Shown piece by piece: positions 55,542 through 64,000 of a stretch of DNA of 64,000 bases. The notes beneath the pieces are model-generated. The model saw only the letters and a program-made list of their open reading frames with translations, ran no database searches and was not told the DNA's origin. A program made the translations under genes and the position numbers. Position 1 is the stretch's first letter. Every line of letters starts with the position of its first letter. Origin of the DNA: Pseudomonas sp. SCB32 (GTDB lineage Bacteria; Pseudomonadota; Gammaproteobacteria; Pseudomonadales; Pseudomonadaceae); assembly GCF_009189165.1 (NCBI RefSeq), contig NZ_CP045118.1, positions 5,022,001 through 5,086,000 on the forward strand, written 5' to 3'.

Positions 55542-55992
55542 ATGAAATCAGCAACATCCTGGATCGCCGCCCTCCTGGTCACCTTTTCCCTCAGCGCCTG
55601 CTCAACAGTCGATGCGGGCGACGGCGGGCCGGGTGAGGTGGAGATTCGCTCGGGCCGCATCGAGCAGATATCCCTGCCCCAGATGCAGACCAACCATGAC
55701 AGCGGCGTCGGCGCCGTGCTCGGTGGCGTGGGCGGCGCTCGGCAGCCTGATCGGCCACGGCACCGGCCGGGATGTGGCGATGGTCGCGGGCGCGCTCGGT
55801 GGCGCCCTGGGTGGCAACTACGCGGAGAAGAAGCACTACGACCAGCCCAAGGAAGCCCAGCAGATCATCGTGCGGATGAAGAATGGAGTGCTGGTATCGG
55901 TGACCCAGCCGGTCAGTCCGGGACTGGCGACGGGCATGCCGGTATACATCGAGGGCAGTGGCAACGAGGCGCGAGTGGTTCCACAGGGTTAA
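55542..55992 (+). pseudogene. slyB: SlyB-like glycine-zipper lipoprotein gene with a frameshift
   Basis: The first frame gives a lipoprotein signal (SWIAALLVTFSLSAC) and VEIRSGRIEQISLPQMQTNHDSGVGAVLGGVGG. The glycine zipper then continues only in another frame: LGSLIGHGTGRDVAMVAGALGGALGGNYAEKKHYDQ and a C-terminal domain with MKNGVLVSVTQPVSPGLATGMPVYIEG. The switch is at 55731-55738, where GGCGGCGCTC has one base too many or two too few. Joined, the protein would be about 150 residues, the SlyB size. It may be a true mutation or a sequencing error. Confidence 0.85.
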
Positions 55993-56052
55993 CCGATCAA
56001 GGCGCCTTTCCCGGAGAAAGGGAAAGGCGCCGCTTACGGACGTGAGCCGAAG

Positions 56053-56295
56053 TCAGGGAGTTTTCAGCTTGTCGATCAACTCCGTGCGCCATACACCAAT
56101 ACAGCGAGGCGCACGAATGGAAAGACGTACCATCACGCCCTTCAAGGGGTCTCGGGAAAGTGGCGTGTAAACGCCGTCAACCCTCACTACCAAGCCCTCG
56201 CCACGCACCGCAAGCAGTATTTCCTCGTCACTCACTTCGTCGCCACAGAAGATTCGAATTTCCTCTCCAGGTCGACGCGACAGTGCCAGCGCCAT
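56053..56295 (-). CDS. CsrA/RsmA-family RNA-binding protein with insertion (RsmF/RsmN-like)
   Basis: The 80-residue protein starts LALSRRPGEEIRI, matching the CsrA first strands (L-I-L-T-R-R-x-G-E), and ends GVMVRLSIRAPRCIGVWRTELIDKL, matching the CsrA strands 3-5 and the RNA-contacting Arg (R70, like CsrA R44). A roughly 25-residue insert lies between, as in P. aeruginosa RsmF/RsmN. It would bind GGA motifs in mRNA or sRNA. GGGAGG spans the last codons of the outer-membrane channel gene; its stop (TAG) is four bases before this ATG, so translation is coupled to the efflux operon. Confidence 0.82.
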   Translation of the reverse strand: MALALSRRPGEEIRIFCGDEVSDEEILLAVRGEGLVVRVDGVYTPLSRDPLKGVMVRLSIRAPRCIGVWRTELIDKLKTP

Positions 56296-56299
56296 TGAT

Positions 56300-57730
56300 C
56301 TACCTCCCACGAGCCGCTATAGGCTTGACGAGCAACGATGCATCCGCGCCGACGTCGCCGCCAACCGACAGGTACAACGCGTTGAAGGCGTTCAGCGACG
56401 CCAATCGACTGTTAACTTCCTGCAGTTGCCCTTCGAAGAGTTTTTCTTCCGAGGTGGTGACCTCCAGATAGGTCGAATATCCCCCCTCGTACAATCGACG
56501 CGCCTGCCTGGCGTAGGTCTGCAACGCACTGATCTGCTGCTCGACAGCAGTGAGCTGTGCCGCCGACTCACGGGTATCGACCAGGGCGTCGTTCACGTCC
56601 GCCAAGGCCGACTGGACGGCTCCCTGGTAGGCCAGCACCGATTGCTGGTACTGGGACTTCGCCTGCAGGACCTGACCGGAGATCGCACCCGCATCGAATA
56701 CGGTCTGGTTGATGCCAAGCGCCAGGTTCCAGATTTTCGATGCGCTCTCGAACAGCTGTCCGCTCTCACCGCGGCTGAAACCGATCATCCCCGACAGGTT
56801 AAGGTCCGGCAGATACAACGCTTCTGCCGCCCCGACCATCGCATTGCTCGCCACTACCGCCTGCTCCGCCTGCAGCAGGTCCGGCCGCCGTGACAACAGA
56901 CTGGCAGGCAGGACTGTCGGCGTCGCCGGCGCGCGCAACGAGGACAAGCGCTCAGAGCGCACGATAGGCCCCGGAGCACGGCCGAGCAGAACCGACAGTG
57001 AGTTCTCCGCTGCGGCGATCTTTGACCTCAGTGGCGGAATGGCCGCCTGGGTCGACCAGTAGTCGTTCTGTGCCTGGCTGAGTTCGAGCTGGCGAACCAC
57101 ACCTCGGTCATAACGCTTCTGGAAGATATCCAGCGCATCCTTGCGCGCCTGCGCCGTTTGCTCTGCGATAGCCAGCTGCTCATCCAGCGCGAGCAGATTC
57201 AAATAGCCTTCACTGATCGAGCTGGCCAGGCTGAGTGCCACGCCACGCTGCGCATACTGCGCGCCCAGCAGTTGCGCGCTTGCCGCTTCGCCCTGCCGGC
57301 GCAGCCGTCCCCACAGATCGATCTCCCAGCTGGCGCTCATCCCCGACTGATACTGATTGGTAACGCCATCAAAGCTCGAGAACGGCGTATCGACGAACTG
57401 ATCGCGGCGTCCACGCTGGGCTCCCAGGCCCAGGCCGAGTTGCGGGAACAAGCCTGCGCGGACGGTCTGCAGTTGCCCGCGGAACTGCTCGATGCGTGTA
57501 GTGGCACGCTGCAGGTCGAGGTTGTTGGTCAGGCCTTCGTTCACCAGTGCTGCCAGCGTTGGCGAGCCGAACTGCCCCCACCAGGGGCCGGCCACGCCAG
57601 CGGAGGTATTCGTCAGATGCGCCCTGAAGGTGGACGGCACACTGACCTCCGGCCGCTGATAGTCCGGTCCGATCATGCAGCCCGCCACGCTGGACACGGC
57701 CAGCGCCAACCACAGTTTTCTGGCATCCAT
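56300..57730 (-). CDS. RND efflux outer-membrane lipoprotein channel (OprM/NodT family)
   Basis: A 476-residue outer-membrane factor with a lipoprotein signal (ALAVSSVAGC) and repeat halves marked by LVNEGLTNNLDLQRATTRIEQFRGQLQTVRAGLFPQ and the later VSEALYLP-like VGAAEALYLPDLNLSG. It forms the trimeric tunnel for the pump. Its ATG overlaps the pump gene's TGA by one base, and its end carries the ribosome site of the CsrA-like gene. Confidence 0.92.
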   Translation of the reverse strand: MDARKLWLALAVSSVAGCMIGPDYQRPEVSVPSTFRAHLTNTSAGVAGPWWGQFGSPTLAALVNEGLTNNLDLQRATTRIEQFRGQLQTVRAGLFPQLGLGLGAQRGRRDQFVDTPFSSFDGVTNQYQSGMSASWEIDLWGRLRRQGEAASAQLLGAQYAQRGVALSLASSISEGYLNLLALDEQLAIAEQTAQARKDALDIFQKRYDRGVVRQLELSQAQNDYWSTQAAIPPLRSKIAAAENSLSVLLGRAPGPIVRSERLSSLRAPATPTVLPASLLSRRPDLLQAEQAVVASNAMVGAAEALYLPDLNLSGMIGFSRGESGQLFESASKIWNLALGINQTVFDAGAISGQVLQAKSQYQQSVLAYQGAVQSALADVNDALVDTRESAAQLTAVEQQISALQTYARQARRLYEGGYSTYLEVTTSEEKLFEGQLQEVNSRLASLNAFNALYLSVGGDVGADASLLVKPIAARGR

Positions 57731-60700
57731 CAGTGGGCCTCCGGGGCAGTGCCGCTATCGGCTTCGCTTACGCCGACGGATGTCGAGGCAGCCTCCTTCT
57801 GCTTATCCTTCCGCTCGCCAAGCCGCTCGACGAGGTAGGAGAACAGCGGCACGAACAGCAGCGCCAGACTGGTGGCGGCGAGCATCCCGCCAATGATGCC
57901 GGTACCGATGGAATGACGGGAATTCGCCCCCGCCCCCGTGGCGATGGCCAGCGGAACCGCACCGAAAATGAACGCCAGGGAGGTCATGATGATGGGGCGC
58001 AAGCGCAGCTGGGCGGCCTTGAGAACCGCGTCCATGGGCGAGAGCCCCGCCTGGCGCTGGAGGATGACGAACTCCACGATCAGGATCGCGTTCTTCGCCG
58101 CCAGCCCCACAAGGGTGACCAGGCCGATCTGGAAGTAAACGTCGTTGGGAATGCCACGCGCCCAGATCGCCACCAACGCGCCGAAGATGCCGAATGGCAC
58201 GGCGCTGAGTACCGTCAGCGGCAGCGACCAGGATTCGTACTGTGCCGCCAGGATCAGGAACACCATGATGATGCCGAAGATGAACACCAGCACCGTGGTA
58301 TTGCCCGACTTGTTCTGCTCGAACGCCTCGCCGCTCCACGCATAGCTGTAGCCGGCAGGAAGCTCCTGAGCGGCGAGTTGCTGCATGGCCGTGATGGCAT
58401 CGCCTGAGCTGTAGCCCGGGGCCGCGCTGCCAGTAATCTTGGCGGCGGGGAAGTTGTTGAAGCGGGTTACCAGGCTCGGGCCGGAGCTGAACTCCGTCTT
58501 CACCAGCGCGGACAGGGGGATCATCTTGTCATTCTTCTGTTTCACGTACAGATAGCCCAGGTCGGTCGGTGAACTGCGGTACTGCGGGGCACCCTGCAGG
58601 ATCACCTGCCACACCCTGCTGCCCAGGACATACTGGCTGACGTACGAGGAGCCGAACTGAGTCTGGAGCGCGCCATAGACATCAGCCATCGGAACGCCGA
58701 GGGTCTCCGCCTTCGAGTTGTCGACGGAAATCCGCATCTGCCGGGTGGACGCCTGGAAGGTACTGATCAGGCCAGACAGCTCCGGGCGCTTGGCAGCGGC
58801 GCCGATGAGTTTCCAGGTCGCTGCCTGCAATTCCTTGGCGTCGCCATTGCCACGGCTTTCCACCCAGAATTCAAAACCGCCCTGGGTGCCCAGACCGGGA
58901 ATCGACGGCGGGTTGATGGGGATGACCCTTGCCTGGGGAATGCTCGCCAGCTTCGGATAAAGCGCCCTGATCACACCGTCGGCGGAAAGCGCGAAGCCCT
59001 TGCGCTGCTCGGACGGCTTCAGGTTGATGAACACCGTTCCCATGTTGGTCTGGTTCTGCCCGTCGATGAAGCTGTAACCGGAAATCGCCGAGGCATCCTG
59101 TACGGCAGGGTGTTCGCGGAACAGGGAGGCCACCTGTTCGGTGGTAGCCTCGGTGCGATCGAGGCTCGCCGAGTCCGGCATCATCACGGCCACCAGCAGG
59201 TAACCCTGGTCCTCTTCGGGAACGAAGCTGGTCGGGATCTTCGAGAAGAGCGTCCAGATGCACAGCAGCATCACCGCAAACAGCGCCAGTGCCAGCACCA
59301 TGCGCCGGACCACCAGGGACACCAGGCCGACGTAGCCGTGAGTCAGCTTGTCGATTGCCTGGTTGAACCACTGGAAGCCTTTCCAGCGGGCATGCTGGCC
59401 GGGCTTGAGAATCAGTGAGGCCAGCGCCGGCGACAAGCTCAGGGCGACGAAGCCGGAAATCACCACCGAGCAGGCGATGGTCAGGGCAAACTGCCGATAC
59501 AACAGGCCGGTCGTACCGCTGACGAAGGCCACGGGGACGAACACGGCACAGAGAACCAGCACGATGGCGACCACCGGCCCGGTCACTTCCTCCATGGCCT
59601 TCACGGTTGCATCGCGGGCGCTGAGCTTGAGCTCCTCCATGTTCCGCTCGACGTTTTCCACGACGACGATCGCGTCGTCCACGACGATGCCGATGGCCAG
59701 CACCAAGGCGAAAAGCGTCAGCAGGTTGATGGAGAAACCCAGTGCCAGCAAGGCGCCGAAAGTACCCACCACCGCCACGACCACCGCGGCAACTGGAATC
59801 AGGGTACTGCGCACGCTCTGCAGGAAGACGAACACCACCATCACCACCAGCGCGATGGCGATCAACAGCGTCACCTCCACCTCGTGGATGGAGGAACGTA
59901 CGAACTCCGTGGTATCCAGCGAGACCACGGAGTCGATCCCATGCGGGAAAGTCGTGGACATCTCGGCCAGTGCCGCGCGAACGTTCTTCGACACTTCCAG
60001 GGCATTCGAGCCGGCCTGCTGGTAGACGGCGATCAGGGTGGCGGTCTTGCCGTTGATGGACGAGCGCATGGTGTACTGGTTAAGGCCGATTTCCGCGCTG
60101 GCGACGTCCCCCAGGCGAACGATGGCCGTCCCCGTGGAGTCGACGCGCAGGATAATGTCCTCGAAGTCCTTGGCCGTTTTCATCCGCCCCGGAGTCACCA
60201 GCGGATAGGTCAGCTCCATCTGCCCCTGGGAAGGGGCCTGGCCGATGTTGCCGGCACCGAACTGCTGGTTCTGCTGGCTGACGGCGTTCTGCACGTCCGC
60301 CGCCGTGATCCCCAGCTCGGCCATCCTGTCGGGCTTGAGCCAGATGCGCAGGGCGAGGTCGGCGTCGCCCATGATCTGTGCCTGGTTCGCCCCCTGGATG
60401 CGCTTGATCGCATCCAGCACGTACAGGTTCGCGTAGTTGCCGACGTACTGCTGGTCGAAGCTGTCATCAGGGGAATAGATGGCCAACAGCATGAGGAAAC
60501 TGGAAGAGCGCTTCTGCACGTTGACGCCGTTCTGCTGGACGGACTGCGGCAACTGCGCCAGCGCCTGGCTGACTCGGTTCTGTACCTGGACCTGGGCGAT
60601 GTCGGGGTCGGTACCGGTATCGAAGTACACGTTCAGGGTCATTTGTCCCGTGGGCGAGCTGACCGACTGCATGTACAGCATGTTGTCCACGCCGTTGACC

Positions 60701-60906
60701 TGCGTCTCGATGGGCGCTGCGACGGTGGATGCGATGGTCTGCGAGTCGGCGCCCGGATAGGTCGCCGTCACAGTGATCTGGATGGGGGTGATGTCGGGAT
60801 ACTGCGCCACAGGCAACGCGAAGATCGACACGCCACCGGCGATGATGATGATCAGCGACAGCACCATGGCGAAGATCGGGCGCTCAATGCAGAAGCGGGA
60901 AAGCAT
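57730..60906 (-). CDS. RND multidrug efflux transporter, HAE-1 family
   Basis: A 1058-residue inner-membrane proton-driven pump. The N-terminal FCIERPIFAMVLSLIIIIAGG, the proton relay aspartates in GIVVDDAIVVVENVERNM, and FVPEEDQGYLLV are standard. It resembles the AcrB/MexB/MexF group and would export hydrophobic drugs or similar. It lies ten bases downstream of the adaptor gene and overlaps the channel gene. No divergent repressor gene is in the window. Confidence 0.95.
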   Translation of the reverse strand: MLSRFCIERPIFAMVLSLIIIIAGGVSIFALPVAQYPDITPIQITVTATYPGADSQTIASTVAAPIETQVNGVDNMLYMQSVSSPTGQMTLNVYFDTGTDPDIAQVQVQNRVSQALAQLPQSVQQNGVNVQKRSSSFLMLLAIYSPDDSFDQQYVGNYANLYVLDAIKRIQGANQAQIMGDADLALRIWLKPDRMAELGITAADVQNAVSQQNQQFGAGNIGQAPSQGQMELTYPLVTPGRMKTAKDFEDIILRVDSTGTAIVRLGDVASAEIGLNQYTMRSSINGKTATLIAVYQQAGSNALEVSKNVRAALAEMSTTFPHGIDSVVSLDTTEFVRSSIHEVEVTLLIAIALVVMVVFVFLQSVRSTLIPVAAVVVAVVGTFGALLALGFSINLLTLFALVLAIGIVVDDAIVVVENVERNMEELKLSARDATVKAMEEVTGPVVAIVLVLCAVFVPVAFVSGTTGLLYRQFALTIACSVVISGFVALSLSPALASLILKPGQHARWKGFQWFNQAIDKLTHGYVGLVSLVVRRMVLALALFAVMLLCIWTLFSKIPTSFVPEEDQGYLLVAVMMPDSASLDRTEATTEQVASLFREHPAVQDASAISGYSFIDGQNQTNMGTVFINLKPSEQRKGFALSADGVIRALYPKLASIPQARVIPINPPSIPGLGTQGGFEFWVESRGNGDAKELQAATWKLIGAAAKRPELSGLISTFQASTRQMRISVDNSKAETLGVPMADVYGALQTQFGSSYVSQYVLGSRVWQVILQGAPQYRSSPTDLGYLYVKQKNDKMIPLSALVKTEFSSGPSLVTRFNNFPAAKITGSAAPGYSSGDAITAMQQLAAQELPAGYSYAWSGEAFEQNKSGNTTVLVFIFGIIMVFLILAAQYESWSLPLTVLSAVPFGIFGALVAIWARGIPNDVYFQIGLVTLVGLAAKNAILIVEFVILQRQAGLSPMDAVLKAAQLRLRPIIMTSLAFIFGAVPLAIATGAGANSRHSIGTGIIGGMLAATSLALLFVPLFSYLVERLGERKDKQKEAASTSVGVSEADSGTAPEAH

Positions 60907-60916
60907 GGCCGGCTCC

Positions 60917-62083
60917 TCACTCTGACTTCGCGGCGGGAGCGCCGAAGCTGTCGGCCTGCGCCACGCCGGTCACTTTCAGTGGCGCACCTGGCATCAACTT
61001 GCCAGCGCCATCGACGACCACCTGCTCTCCACCCTTGAGTCCGTCTTCGACCCGCCAGAAATCACCGGACGGTTCGGCCATCTGCACCGGGCGGGCCTCG
61101 GCCTTGCCGTCGGAACCGGCAACATACACGAAGTCCCCTTTCGGCCCGTGCATGACTGCCCGCTGCGGGACCTGGACGGCATTGGCGTAGCTCGCGCCCT
61201 TGAGCGTGATGCGCACGAACTGCCCCGGATGCAGCTCACCCTTGGGATTGGCGAAGTCGGCGCGAACCATGAAGGTGCCGGTCTGCTGGTTGAACGTGCT
61301 GGAGGTGAAGGTCACCACACCGGTATGCGGGTAGCTGGAGCCATCGGCCATCAACAGATCGGCTTCCATGCGCCCATCGGCCGGCAAGACCAGCCGGCCG
61401 CTCTCGCTCAGGTTGCGCACGGCGAGGAACTGCTCCTCGCTCACGCTCAGGACAACCCGCATGGGGTCCAGGGTCGAAACCGTGGTCAGCAGACTGTTGC
61501 TGGTGTTTACGTAGGTGCCGTCATTCACCTGCGCGTAGTCACTGACGCCCTCCACCGGTGAGCGGATGTAGGTGTAGGACAGATTCAGCTCCTGGGTTTT
61601 CACCTGGGCCAATGCGGCCTGCATGGAGGCTTCCGCCGCCTTGGCGCTGCCGATCGCATCATCTCGATCCTTTGGGCTCAGTGCCTTCTCGGCCGCCAGC
61701 GGCAGGACTCGATCAAGGTTGGCCTTGGCCCGTTCATAGCGAGCCTTCTGCGCCTCGTACTCGGCCTTGGCCGAGGCGAGGTCGGCCAGGAATGGGGCGT
61801 GATCGATTTCGAAGAGCAGTTGGCCAGCCGTCACCACGCTCCCTTCCGTGTAGTTGCGCTTGAGGAGGAAGCCATTGACCCGGGCACGAATATCCACAGC
61901 CTGAGGGCTTTGGGTCTGGCCGACGAAGGTAATGCTCGCCGGTAAGCTCTCGGGTTTCGTCGTCACGGTAGTGACATCGATCGGAGCGGCGCCGGCAGGG
62001 CCCTTTCCATCCGGCCCGCAGGCTGTCAGGCAGGCAGCGGCAAATAACACTGCGCAATGGCAGCCGAGATCAGTCAAACGCAT
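60917..62083 (-). CDS. RND periplasmic adaptor (membrane-fusion) lipoprotein
   Basis: A 388-residue protein with a lipobox (FAAACLTAC), lipoyl and hairpin domains (VDIRARVNGFLLKRNYTEGSVVTAGQLLFEID then a coiled coil rich in Ala and Lys) and barrel segments (PVEGVSDYAQVNDGTYVN; GQFVRITLKG). It connects the pump to the outer-membrane channel. First of the three pump genes; the exported-protein gene at 62165 ends 81 bases before. Confidence 0.92.
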   Translation of the reverse strand: MRLTDLGCHCAVLFAAACLTACGPDGKGPAGAAPIDVTTVTTKPESLPASITFVGQTQSPQAVDIRARVNGFLLKRNYTEGSVVTAGQLLFEIDHAPFLADLASAKAEYEAQKARYERAKANLDRVLPLAAEKALSPKDRDDAIGSAKAAEASMQAALAQVKTQELNLSYTYIRSPVEGVSDYAQVNDGTYVNTSNSLLTTVSTLDPMRVVLSVSEEQFLAVRNLSESGRLVLPADGRMEADLLMADGSSYPHTGVVTFTSSTFNQQTGTFMVRADFANPKGELHPGQFVRITLKGASYANAVQVPQRAVMHGPKGDFVYVAGSDGKAEARPVQMAEPSGDFWRVEDGLKGGEQVVVDGAGKLMPGAPLKVTGVAQADSFGAPAAKSE

Positions 62084-62164
62084 GGTGGATTCCGTTGGTC
62101 ATCGCGGAGCAGCAAAAAAACGAGGCAAGGGCCTCTGCGGTCTGGCAGGAGCCCCGGAGTTGCA

Positions 62165-62770
62165 TCAGTTGGTGGACTTGGTCGGGGCCTGAGCGCCCGG
62201 ATGGGCAGTCACGATCTGCAGGGTGTCCTCATAGGTCACGTTCAGCGTCTGGCCAGCCTTCAGCTCACCCAGCTTGCTGCGCAGTTTCGGGTCGTCGACG
62301 GAAACGACCTTGGTGGTGCCGTCCGGACCTTCGAAGGTGAGCTCATGCTTCTTGACGTTGATCCCGACGATCTTCAGTTGCACGCGCGCCATGCGGAATG
62401 CGTCGCCGCCCGGATGCAGGTTGCTCGGGGTCGCCAGGGCAACGCCTTCGGCCTCGATACCGCCCGGTGCCTGGCTCTGAACCTTGGTATCCAGATCGAA
62501 CGCGGCGGAGTGGATGACCAGCGCGGCGATAGCGTCGCCCGCCTTCAGATGCCCCAGATCCTGAGCAGCATCGGTGACCTGTACGGTGATCGGCTTGCCC
62601 GCCGCGTCCTCGACCACGATACGGCGATCCTTGGCATCGACGGAAACGACCTTGGTCACGACCTCATCGGCCTCGACGGCGGTGCCCAGCGGAATGTCGG
62701 CAGCCATCACAGGGGCGGCGATCGCCAAAGCCAGGGCGCTGATCATCGGCAGGGATTTGAGGATATGCAT
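62165..62770 (-). CDS. Periplasmic protein, unknown function, upstream of the RND pump
   Basis: A 201-residue protein with a signal peptide (LKSLPMISALALAIAAPVMA) and two copies of a beta-rich unit: VTKVVSVDAKDRRIVVEDAAGKPITVQV and VGINVKKHELTFEGPDGTTKVVSVDDPKL, both like small beta barrels. No catalytic residues stand out. AGGAGGGTTCACTC precedes ATG 62770. Same strand as the pump genes, so probably part of the operon. Confidence 0.72.
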   Translation of the reverse strand: MHILKSLPMISALALAIAAPVMAADIPLGTAVEADEVVTKVVSVDAKDRRIVVEDAAGKPITVQVTDAAQDLGHLKAGDAIAALVIHSAAFDLDTKVQSQAPGGIEAEGVALATPSNLHPGGDAFRMARVQLKIVGINVKKHELTFEGPDGTTKVVSVDDPKLRSKLGELKAGQTLNVTYEDTLQIVTAHPGAQAPTKSTN

Positions 62771-62832
62771 GAGTGAACCCTCCTTGGGCTCGGTGTTGTG
62801 GAAAATTGGAAGCGCGAATGGCGCTCTCGGCG

Positions 62833-63159
62833 CTACTTGGAAATCCGGGCGGTATCGCTGATCGCATTGCAGGTGTTCGGGTCCAGGCAGTAGGTGATGT
62901 AAACCGCCTGGCGCCCGCAGCCGCGCGCCCCGATGGTGTATTCGGTACGGTTGTTGGCGTAGGCGATCTGAACCTGAGTGACCTTGCTCGACAGGACGGA
63001 CGCCGAGACATCCGGGCAGTCGAGCTCGAACTTCGCGCGGGAAACGGTGGCGTTGATGGCTGCGTTCTGGTTCTGCGCGAGGAACTCCTGATCGGTCATG
63101 CAACCACTCACGGCGGCTGCAAAGGCACAGAGCGAAACCAGCAGATAGCGTGTCTTCAT
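62833..63159 (-). CDS. Small lipoprotein, unknown function
   Basis: A 108-residue lipoprotein: signal MKTRYLLVSLCAFAAAVSGC with lipobox V-S-G-C. The mature part has four further cysteines (LDC, RGCG, TYCLD, NTCN) that could form disulfides. It has no recognised family. It lies between two other exported proteins on the minus strand. Confidence 0.68.
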   Translation of the reverse strand: MKTRYLLVSLCAFAAAVSGCMTDQEFLAQNQNAAINATVSRAKFELDCPDVSASVLSSKVTQVQIAYANNRTEYTIGARGCGRQAVYITYCLDPNTCNAISDTARISK

Positions 63160-63220
63160 AGGGGAACCTTCGACGACGATGTCCGTTGCCACGCGTGAGC
63201 GCGTGGCACTCAGAAAGGAA

Positions 63221-63724
63221 TTACTCGGCCAGGGGAAGCGATCGATTGGTCTGGATCAGCGCGAGGGCGTCGAGTTGCGTCTCGATCTGCAGGAAGCGCA
63301 GTGCACGCACCGGCGAGACCTCCTTGGAGATACGCCCCACATAGGTTTCCTTCAGCTTCTGGCGTCGGTCTTCCAGCTGGAAGACACGCATCTGCAGGTC
63401 TTGGGCCTGGTCCTCGCCAACCGTGCCCGCCTGCAGGCTGCGGACGAAGTCGAGGCTCAGCGCCATGGCATCGGTATCGACCTTGTCGGCCTCACCGCGG
63501 TAGCTGTTGTAGATGGCCCAGAACGGCTCGGCCTCTGCGGGCGCCAACTGGATGTTGCGATCCATGACGCGGCGGCGGTTGTATTCCACATCTGCCAGTT
63601 GGTTCTTGATTTCCTCCTGATGCTGACTCATCTCGTCGCGGGCCTGCTCGCTGGCCTCCTCGGCGGCGGCGAACAACGGCAGGCAACTGAAAGTCAGGGC
63701 GGCAACAGCGGGACCAAAGTGCAT
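63221..63724 (-). CDS. Helical periplasmic protein, unknown function
   Basis: A 167-residue protein with a signal peptide (AVAALTFSCLPLFAAA) and an extended, charged helical region (EEASEQARDEMSQHQEEIKNQLADVEYNRRR), then MRVFQLEDRRQKLKETYVGRISKEVS. This is a Spy/CpxP-like shape, but I cannot name a motif. AAGGAGTTGCT is seven bases before ATG 63724. It may be the first gene of the RND operon. Confidence 0.65.
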   Translation of the reverse strand: MHFGPAVAALTFSCLPLFAAAEEASEQARDEMSQHQEEIKNQLADVEYNRRRVMDRNIQLAPAEAEPFWAIYNSYRGEADKVDTDAMALSLDFVRSLQAGTVGEDQAQDLQMRVFQLEDRRQKLKETYVGRISKEVSPVRALRFLQIETQLDALALIQTNRSLPLAE

Positions 63725-63785
63725 AGCAACTCCTTGCTGGGGAAATATCGCCTTCGGGCGTCATGGCGCCTGATGGGGCCATGAC

Positions 63786-63795
63786 TGACCGGTCA
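63786..63795. promoter_or_regulatory. Palindrome TGACCGGTCA upstream of the efflux-operon genes
   Basis: A 10-base palindrome, with CATGAC on one side, 62 bases before the gene at 63221-63724. Its place suits an operator of the long leftward operon. The remaining sequence up to 64000 holds no supported gene. Confidence 0.35.
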
Positions 63796-63960
63796 TCCGA
63801 GGCGGAAGCCGCTACCTTAATCGGCATCCGGGGCACTGAAATCGGGGGGGAAATCGATAAGGACAGACCTCCCGTCAGTTGCGCCAATTTCCTACAGGCC
63901 TTGGTCAAGATCCTGAGGAACGGCAATGCACACACGCCCTCTTGCCCCTGAAAAACAAAC

Positions 63961-63985
63961 GGGCGCACCGATTTCCGGTGCGCCC
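63961..63985 (-). terminator. Hairpin terminator of a gene beyond the window
   Basis: GGGCGCACCG and CGGTGCGCCC form a 10-base stem; on the minus strand it is followed by GTTTGTTTTT. It therefore ends a leftward gene that begins past the window. Confidence 0.7.
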
Positions 63986-64000
63986 GCTGGGCGGTTCGCC

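Follow-up and report, generated by a model that had tools for sequence, protein, structure and literature searches.

We analysed a window of 64,000 nucleotides of Pseudomonas sp. SCB32 (contig NZ_CP045118.1, positions 5,022,001 to 5,086,000), in which a gene for an 80-residue, probably RNA-binding protein, here named rsmX, closes an efflux operon. Seven genes run along the minus strand from 63724 to 56053, the strand on which all features below lie unless stated otherwise: three for small proteins that by eye look exported, and then those for a periplasmic adaptor (membrane fusion protein, 60917..62083), an AcrB-type permease of the resistance-nodulation-division (RND) class (57730..60906), an outer membrane factor (NodT-type efflux channel, 56300..57730) and RsmX itself (56053..56295). 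Adaptor and channel were assigned by Pfam and NCBIfam family matches and the permease by NCBIfam RND_permease_1 (1304 bits against a cut-off of 1250), and the adjacency of the three on one strand makes this a tripartite RND efflux operon. The original prediction, made from the sequence alone, had placed a CsrA/RsmF-like protein at the end of such an operon. The 80-residue frame is present in the list of open reading frames, and Pfam, profile and structural comparisons as well as its position in relatives, described below, agree with that placement.

The rsmX operon and its distribution

The junction between the channel gene and rsmX is tight, as had been noted: the channel stop codon (TAG, 56300-56302) lies four bases ahead of the rsmX ATG (56293-56295), and the Shine-Dalgarno sequence of rsmX, GGGAGG (56303..56308), falls within the final codons of the channel gene. 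The gap that separates rsmX from a convergent gene on its 3' side holds, directly after rsmX, a 12-bp GC-rich hairpin (56001..56031; folding z -3.8) that is terminator-like, with no clear U run; in the five other genomes with rsmX, the gene is likewise followed by palindromic, GC-rich stretches, as judged by eye on unfolded sequence. At the other end, a terminator-like hairpin with a T run (63958..63988) sets the operon apart from the upstream gene. A scan of the minus strand from 55800 to 64000 for the sigma-70 consensus, which covers that promoter type alone, returned no promoter-like site, in agreement with the earlier expectation that rsmX has no separate promoter. Because of the spacing between channel stop and rsmX, the flanking hairpins and the lack of a sigma-70-like site, rsmX and the pump genes are likely to share one transcript, and we consider it quite probable that RsmX is expressed together with the pump.

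Among 25 genomes of the genus (the window's own being G000), six carry rsmX at 69-100% identity, two have weaker RsmN-type matches only, and 17 have none at E <= 0.01. Across 398 genomes of the family, with 14 candidates scored per genome, the identical six alone exceeded 120 bits, the next match reaching 40 bits. An orthologue of the adaptor was found in eight of the 25 genomes (E <= 1e-100) and in the same eight of the 398 (E <= 1e-110), four candidates being scored per genome. In all six genomes with rsmX the gene follows the channel gene, at a spacing of -10 to 28 nucleotides. The gene order expected in relatives is therefore found wherever rsmX occurs in these genomes, but two of the eight operons (G016 and G021) lack rsmX. 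These two also lack the convergent glycine-zipper lipoprotein gene, and in G021 the next regulator gene is reduced to a remnant. By adaptor divergence G016 is nearest to G017 and G021 to G000, so that two losses would be the simpler reading, one drawn from these distances and not from a tree of the operon.

As a control we took 36 other loci, at which adaptor, permease or channel matches (E <= 1e-5) were found in none, against 6/6 of the rsmX loci; the 36 represent 27 distinct places, eight of them also included as longer stretches, and 28 of the 36 span only ~2-3 kb. Of the 27 places, twelve encode what reads as a complete RsmN-type protein and one a truncated version; the others are search hits and not verified genes. 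A search for relatives of rsmX in a phage collection gave one weak match and none close, and in a plasmid collection 11 records at E <= 10, none close, the best being 34.6% identical and located on a Pseudomonas megaplasmid (E 0.01). For these two collections, a mobile origin was rejected. As judged from these genomes, rsmX is an RsmN-type paralogue settled in the RND operon of one Pseudomonas lineage.

The proteins encoded by the first three genes matched no Pfam family above cut-off. They are hyp63221 (63221..63724; 167 residues, exported by eye), present in four of the eight operons, the small hyp62833 (62833..63159; 108 residues, lipoprotein-like by eye), whose start at 63159 was chosen by eye over a longer frame from 63192, and hyp62165 (62165..62770; 201 residues, with a signal peptide by eye). 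In G010, G016, G017 and G021 the start region of hyp63221 seems to be attached directly to hyp62833, which may point to a gain or loss of hyp63221 between that start region and the lipoprotein gene. Upstream of the operon (63725-64000), a GTAGGAAATTGGCGCAACTG-like block, perhaps a promoter or regulator site, occurs in variants in seven of the eight genomes, the G010 stretch being too short to reveal it. On the plus strand, the convergent glycine-zipper lipoprotein gene (55542-55992) is split between two frames in the window, whereas in each of the five relatives with this gene the two parts share a frame; the split could reflect either a broken gene or a sequencing error.

Family, fold and conservation of RsmX

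RsmX matches the Pfam CsrA family (PF02599) with 30.9 bits against a gathering cut-off of 27 (E 2.7e-7), in two stretches, which bears out the likeness to CsrA first seen at both ends of the protein. It falls far short of the NCBIfam CsrA equivalog cut-offs (NF002469, 25.5 against 73 bits; TIGR00202, 20.3 against 70.1 bits). The AlphaFold model built on a 71-sequence alignment places a helix (residues 23-33) between strands 13-17 and 36-43, that is, between b2 and b3, which is the arrangement of RsmN and not the classical CsrA topology of five consecutive strands followed by a helix. Structural alignments with Pseudomonas aeruginosa RsmN/RsmF give 29-33% identity, and profile A2 matched RsmN (4k59) over positions 1-68 with E 1.1e-18, the single RsmX sequence alone reaching E 0.58. 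A first AlphaFold model, made from 15 close sequences, was discarded (predicted local distance difference test score 63, first strand missing, long C-terminal helix). No classical CsrA chain stood among the structural matches listed for the model, which is no evidence against likeness to CsrA. The five-strand swapped dimer of CsrA had been proposed as the structural test; since, compared with that dimer, RsmN itself has a rearranged structure (PMC6061880), the match to RsmN, which the predicted structure does give, is the proper test. The 25-residue insert described earlier is better read as two separate insertions, of which the first is the helix typical of RsmN, placed behind b2, and the second lengthens the b3-b4 hairpin in this clade specifically.

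In this b3-b4 extension S47, R48 and P50 are invariant in 15/15 sequences, and K52 and G53 nearly so. R70, which by comparison with CsrA is the essential arginine of the RNA site (for the role of its CsrA counterpart see PMC7366521, section 4), is invariant in 71/71 sequences, as is R7. In a tree the rsmX sequences form one clade (17 rows, support 100/98); its position relative to RsmN has support of 60/92, from few columns and long branches. A set of 5.8 billion proteins holds 14 other RsmX-like sequences, at 74-84% identity. In all likelihood, as far as sequence and model allow, RsmX is an RsmN-type RNA-binding protein. Its family assignment is not new, since some sources label members 'carbon storage regulator' and others 'hypothetical protein'; the operon, the RsmN fold of the clade, the loop and the hairpin discussed below were not found described in the literature searched.

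In five of the rsmX genomes the permease aligns in one frame, and the 10 pairs that these form give, for rsmX, a ratio of nonsynonymous to synonymous substitution rates (dN/dS, NG86 method) of 0.10-0.29. In the sixth, G017, the permease aligns in three frames, and the five pairs involving this genome give 0.16-0.40; synonymous sites are near saturation. At the 34 sites invariant in alignment A1, which contains neither G017 nor G010, the G017 protein has five changes, all radical (negative BLOSUM62), and that of G010, with its permease in one frame, has six, five of them conservative. Each exceeds G007 in unique changes (10 against 2 and 9 against 1), and compared with each other they have 8 and 8. 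A joint decay of rsmX and pump in G017 is thus suggestive only, weakened as it is by the G010 changes, by the 8 to 8 count and by possible assembly errors.

Finally, ten RsmN-type proteins of 135-148 residues (P0016, P0081, P0082, P0085, P0089, P0093 and P0095-P0098) carry two units per chain. On inspection by eye, the C-terminal arginine is missing from the first unit in nine of the ten and retained in the second, and a single-chain or half-active form of the family is possible.

A candidate Rsm site before the third gene

The original prediction missed a possible direct target within the operon. A hairpin scan and folding identified a candidate Rsm site, GAGCCC-AAGGA-GGGTTC (62775..62791), which contains the Shine-Dalgarno sequence of hyp62165 and presents an A(N)GGA loop capping a 6-bp stem at the ribosome site, as the rules for Rsm targets describe (PMC4005645). 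AGGGA and AAGGA pentaloops bind RsmE with high affinity (PMC4005645), so that the operon contains both an Rsm protein and a candidate site of a known class at a ribosome site. The hairpin, with the ATG three or four bases later, is present in all seven operons that retain hyp62165, with a single C-to-T change in G010 that keeps the pairing as G-U, and its flanks vary freely. The window has no other A[AG]GGA pentaloop with a stem of 6 bp or longer, and 20 Markov-resampled windows gave a mean of 0.55. Searched together with the ATG in the 25 genomes, the pattern occurred nine times in seven genomes and its reversed control never. The nine comprise the seven copies in the operons and two paralogues, one in G000 and the other in G021, and every one precedes a hyp62165-type gene.

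The paralogues in G000 and G021 belong to a second cassette (L116, G000:C1:3070400-3073900, and L117, respectively) with paralogues of hyp62833 and hyp62165, the same AAGGA hairpin and no RND genes, which in G000 adjoins an apparent response regulator gene. In six distant hyp62165 homologues (39-49% identity; five from genus g14, one from the same genus) no AAGGA hairpin was found at the candidate starts examined, one of them (L089) having a weak hairpin of another kind; ten homologues of 25-29% identity (genus g11), whose true starts lie outside the stretch or could not be placed, were not counted. The AAGGA hairpin has the look of a lineage-specific trait. At other starts, GGA hairpins were rejected as unconserved: adaptor 1/8 (mostly G-U pairs), permease 0/8, channel 2/7 (4 bp) and rsmX 2/6, in a scan that included hyp62833 only in operons that begin with it and, for the channel, all genomes but G023.

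Proposed local feedback and its alternatives

Taken together, the best explanation is, in our estimate, one in which the pump operon encodes RsmX, is subject to feedback through the hairpin and feeds into the Gac/Rsm network, with a probability of roughly 0.55. Fold, gene order, conservation and hairpin were computed; co-transcription, translational coupling, RNA binding and feedback are what we infer from them. With rsmX at the 3' end of the tripartite RND operon, production of RsmX would accompany transcription of the operon and translation of the channel gene. Alongside the cell's general Rsm proteins, RsmX would bind the AAGGA pentaloop over the hyp62165 Shine-Dalgarno sequence and lower translation of hyp62165, and possibly of the adaptor, permease and channel genes behind it, which would amount to negative feedback on the pump operon. 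The same pool of RsmX would also join the Gac/Rsm network, for which RsmY and RsmZ RNAs above the Rfam cut-offs are present in the genome. That RsmX regulates its own operon through this hairpin is a possibility we hold tentatively, and that its extended, RNA-facing b3-b4 loop is specialised for the AAGGA hairpin of its own transcript seems unlikely.

Several observations weigh against the feedback proposal. The hairpin folds at -9.4 kcal/mol, only modestly better than shuffled sequences (z -2.2, 6/200 as good), and one of seven leader folds (G023) favours another structure. Being nearly invariant across the operons, it hardly varies, and hence shows no covariation. It was chosen once the starts of the operon's genes had been searched for hairpins with GGA in the loop, and such hairpins are frequent by chance: among random GGA stretches, 121/293 have a stem of at least 4 bp and 61/293 one of at least 5 bp. 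Nor is the window rich in Rsm hairpins, with one pentaloop on 5 bp against 1.6 expected and no ANGGAN loop on 6 bp against 1.15. At the first gene, GGA hairpins were rejected as unconserved: G000 and G007 have a stem there, G010 has a weaker one and the other five lack it. The weight we give the AAGGA hairpin rests on its conservation and place. Further, both hyp62165 copies of G021 are preceded by the hairpin although that genome lacks rsmX, and in G000 the second hyp62165-type gene has it too, within 12 kb of sequence that contains no adaptor, permease or channel gene, so that the hairpin travels with hyp62165 and not with rsmX. In G016, a single case without rsmX and without an intact hyp62165, one stem base is changed. 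The genome of the window also encodes four classical CsrA proteins and one further RsmN-type protein, all possible users of the hairpin. A truncated RsmN-type gene (L068, G000:C1:5103223-5103327) lies ~17 kb past the window edge, its frame ending after the helix in sequence that by eye repeats nearby. With the four CsrA proteins, the further RsmN-type genes, RsmY and RsmZ, RsmX would join a crowded Rsm network.

The retention of the hairpin without rsmX, and at a second locus without RND genes, also fits an alternative in which RsmX acts only in trans, as a pump-linked member of the Gac/Rsm network that acts on other mRNAs or competes with RsmA and RsmN for RsmY and RsmZ, while general Rsm proteins read the hairpin, which would have no special tie to RsmX. 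This is close to the idea that first drew attention to the gene, and the other Rsm proteins, RsmY and RsmZ are present for it; we hold it, too, as a tentative possibility, though it accounts neither for the retention of an Rsm protein in one operon nor for the presence of the window's only such pentaloop in that same operon. It is improbable that rsmX is a passenger, kept only loosely since an RsmN paralogue came to lie downstream of the channel gene, and without any regulatory role linked to efflux. The two operons without rsmX would suit such a passenger, as would the radical changes of the G017 protein and the six departures of that of G010, but dN/dS among the genomes with the permease in one frame, the two arginines kept in every sequence and the constant position in all six genomes speak against it.

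The proposed arrangement has partial precedents. The P. aeruginosa rsmN gene stands alone. From its product, RsmN/RsmF (PDB 4KJI, 4KRW, 4K59), RsmX differs by the conserved b3-b4 extension and by its location in an RND operon. With CsrA, RsmA and RsmE it shares the first strand (LSRR), the last part (APRxIxVxRxEL) and PF02599, and it departs from them in the extra helix after b2 and in scoring far under the CsrA equivalog cut-offs. In E. coli, CsrA is encoded away from acrAB. There it acts on acrAB mRNA and is reported to help acrAB expression (PMC8277102). This resembles the action proposed for RsmX, a Csr protein on an RND pump transcript, whereas rsmX lies inside the pump operon, with a candidate site that would hide the third gene's ribosome site. 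Mobile elements are also known to carry accessory csrA genes, such as Legionella csrT on an integrative element (PMC5413113) and RsmM, RsmH and RsmE on phages and plasmids (PMC7366521). Like these, rsmX is an extra paralogue beside the housekeeping gene, but it stands behind pump genes and has no close phage or plasmid relative in the collections searched. Nine Rsm subfamilies have been described in Pseudomonas (Sobrero and Valverde 2020, PMC7366521); the words 'efflux', 'RND' and 'operon' do not occur in the main text of that paper, and rsmX may be among its unassigned sequences. In the open-licence literature searched we found no description of an Rsm gene in an efflux operon.

Rsm proteins are usually regarded as global regulators. 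For tripartite pumps, post-transcriptional control is less known than transcriptional control (PMC8277102). A conserved Rsm gene in a pump operon, with an Rsm-type hairpin upstream on the same predicted transcript, makes a compact and testable case of local feedback, and the RsmN fold with a longer b3-b4 loop adds a further shape of the CsrA family for studies of specificity. Our comparisons suggest, short of proof, that a translation brake is built into the pump operon; should RsmX be specialised for the hairpin of its own transcript, brake and site would lie in one operon and would not depend on the global Gac/Rsm state.
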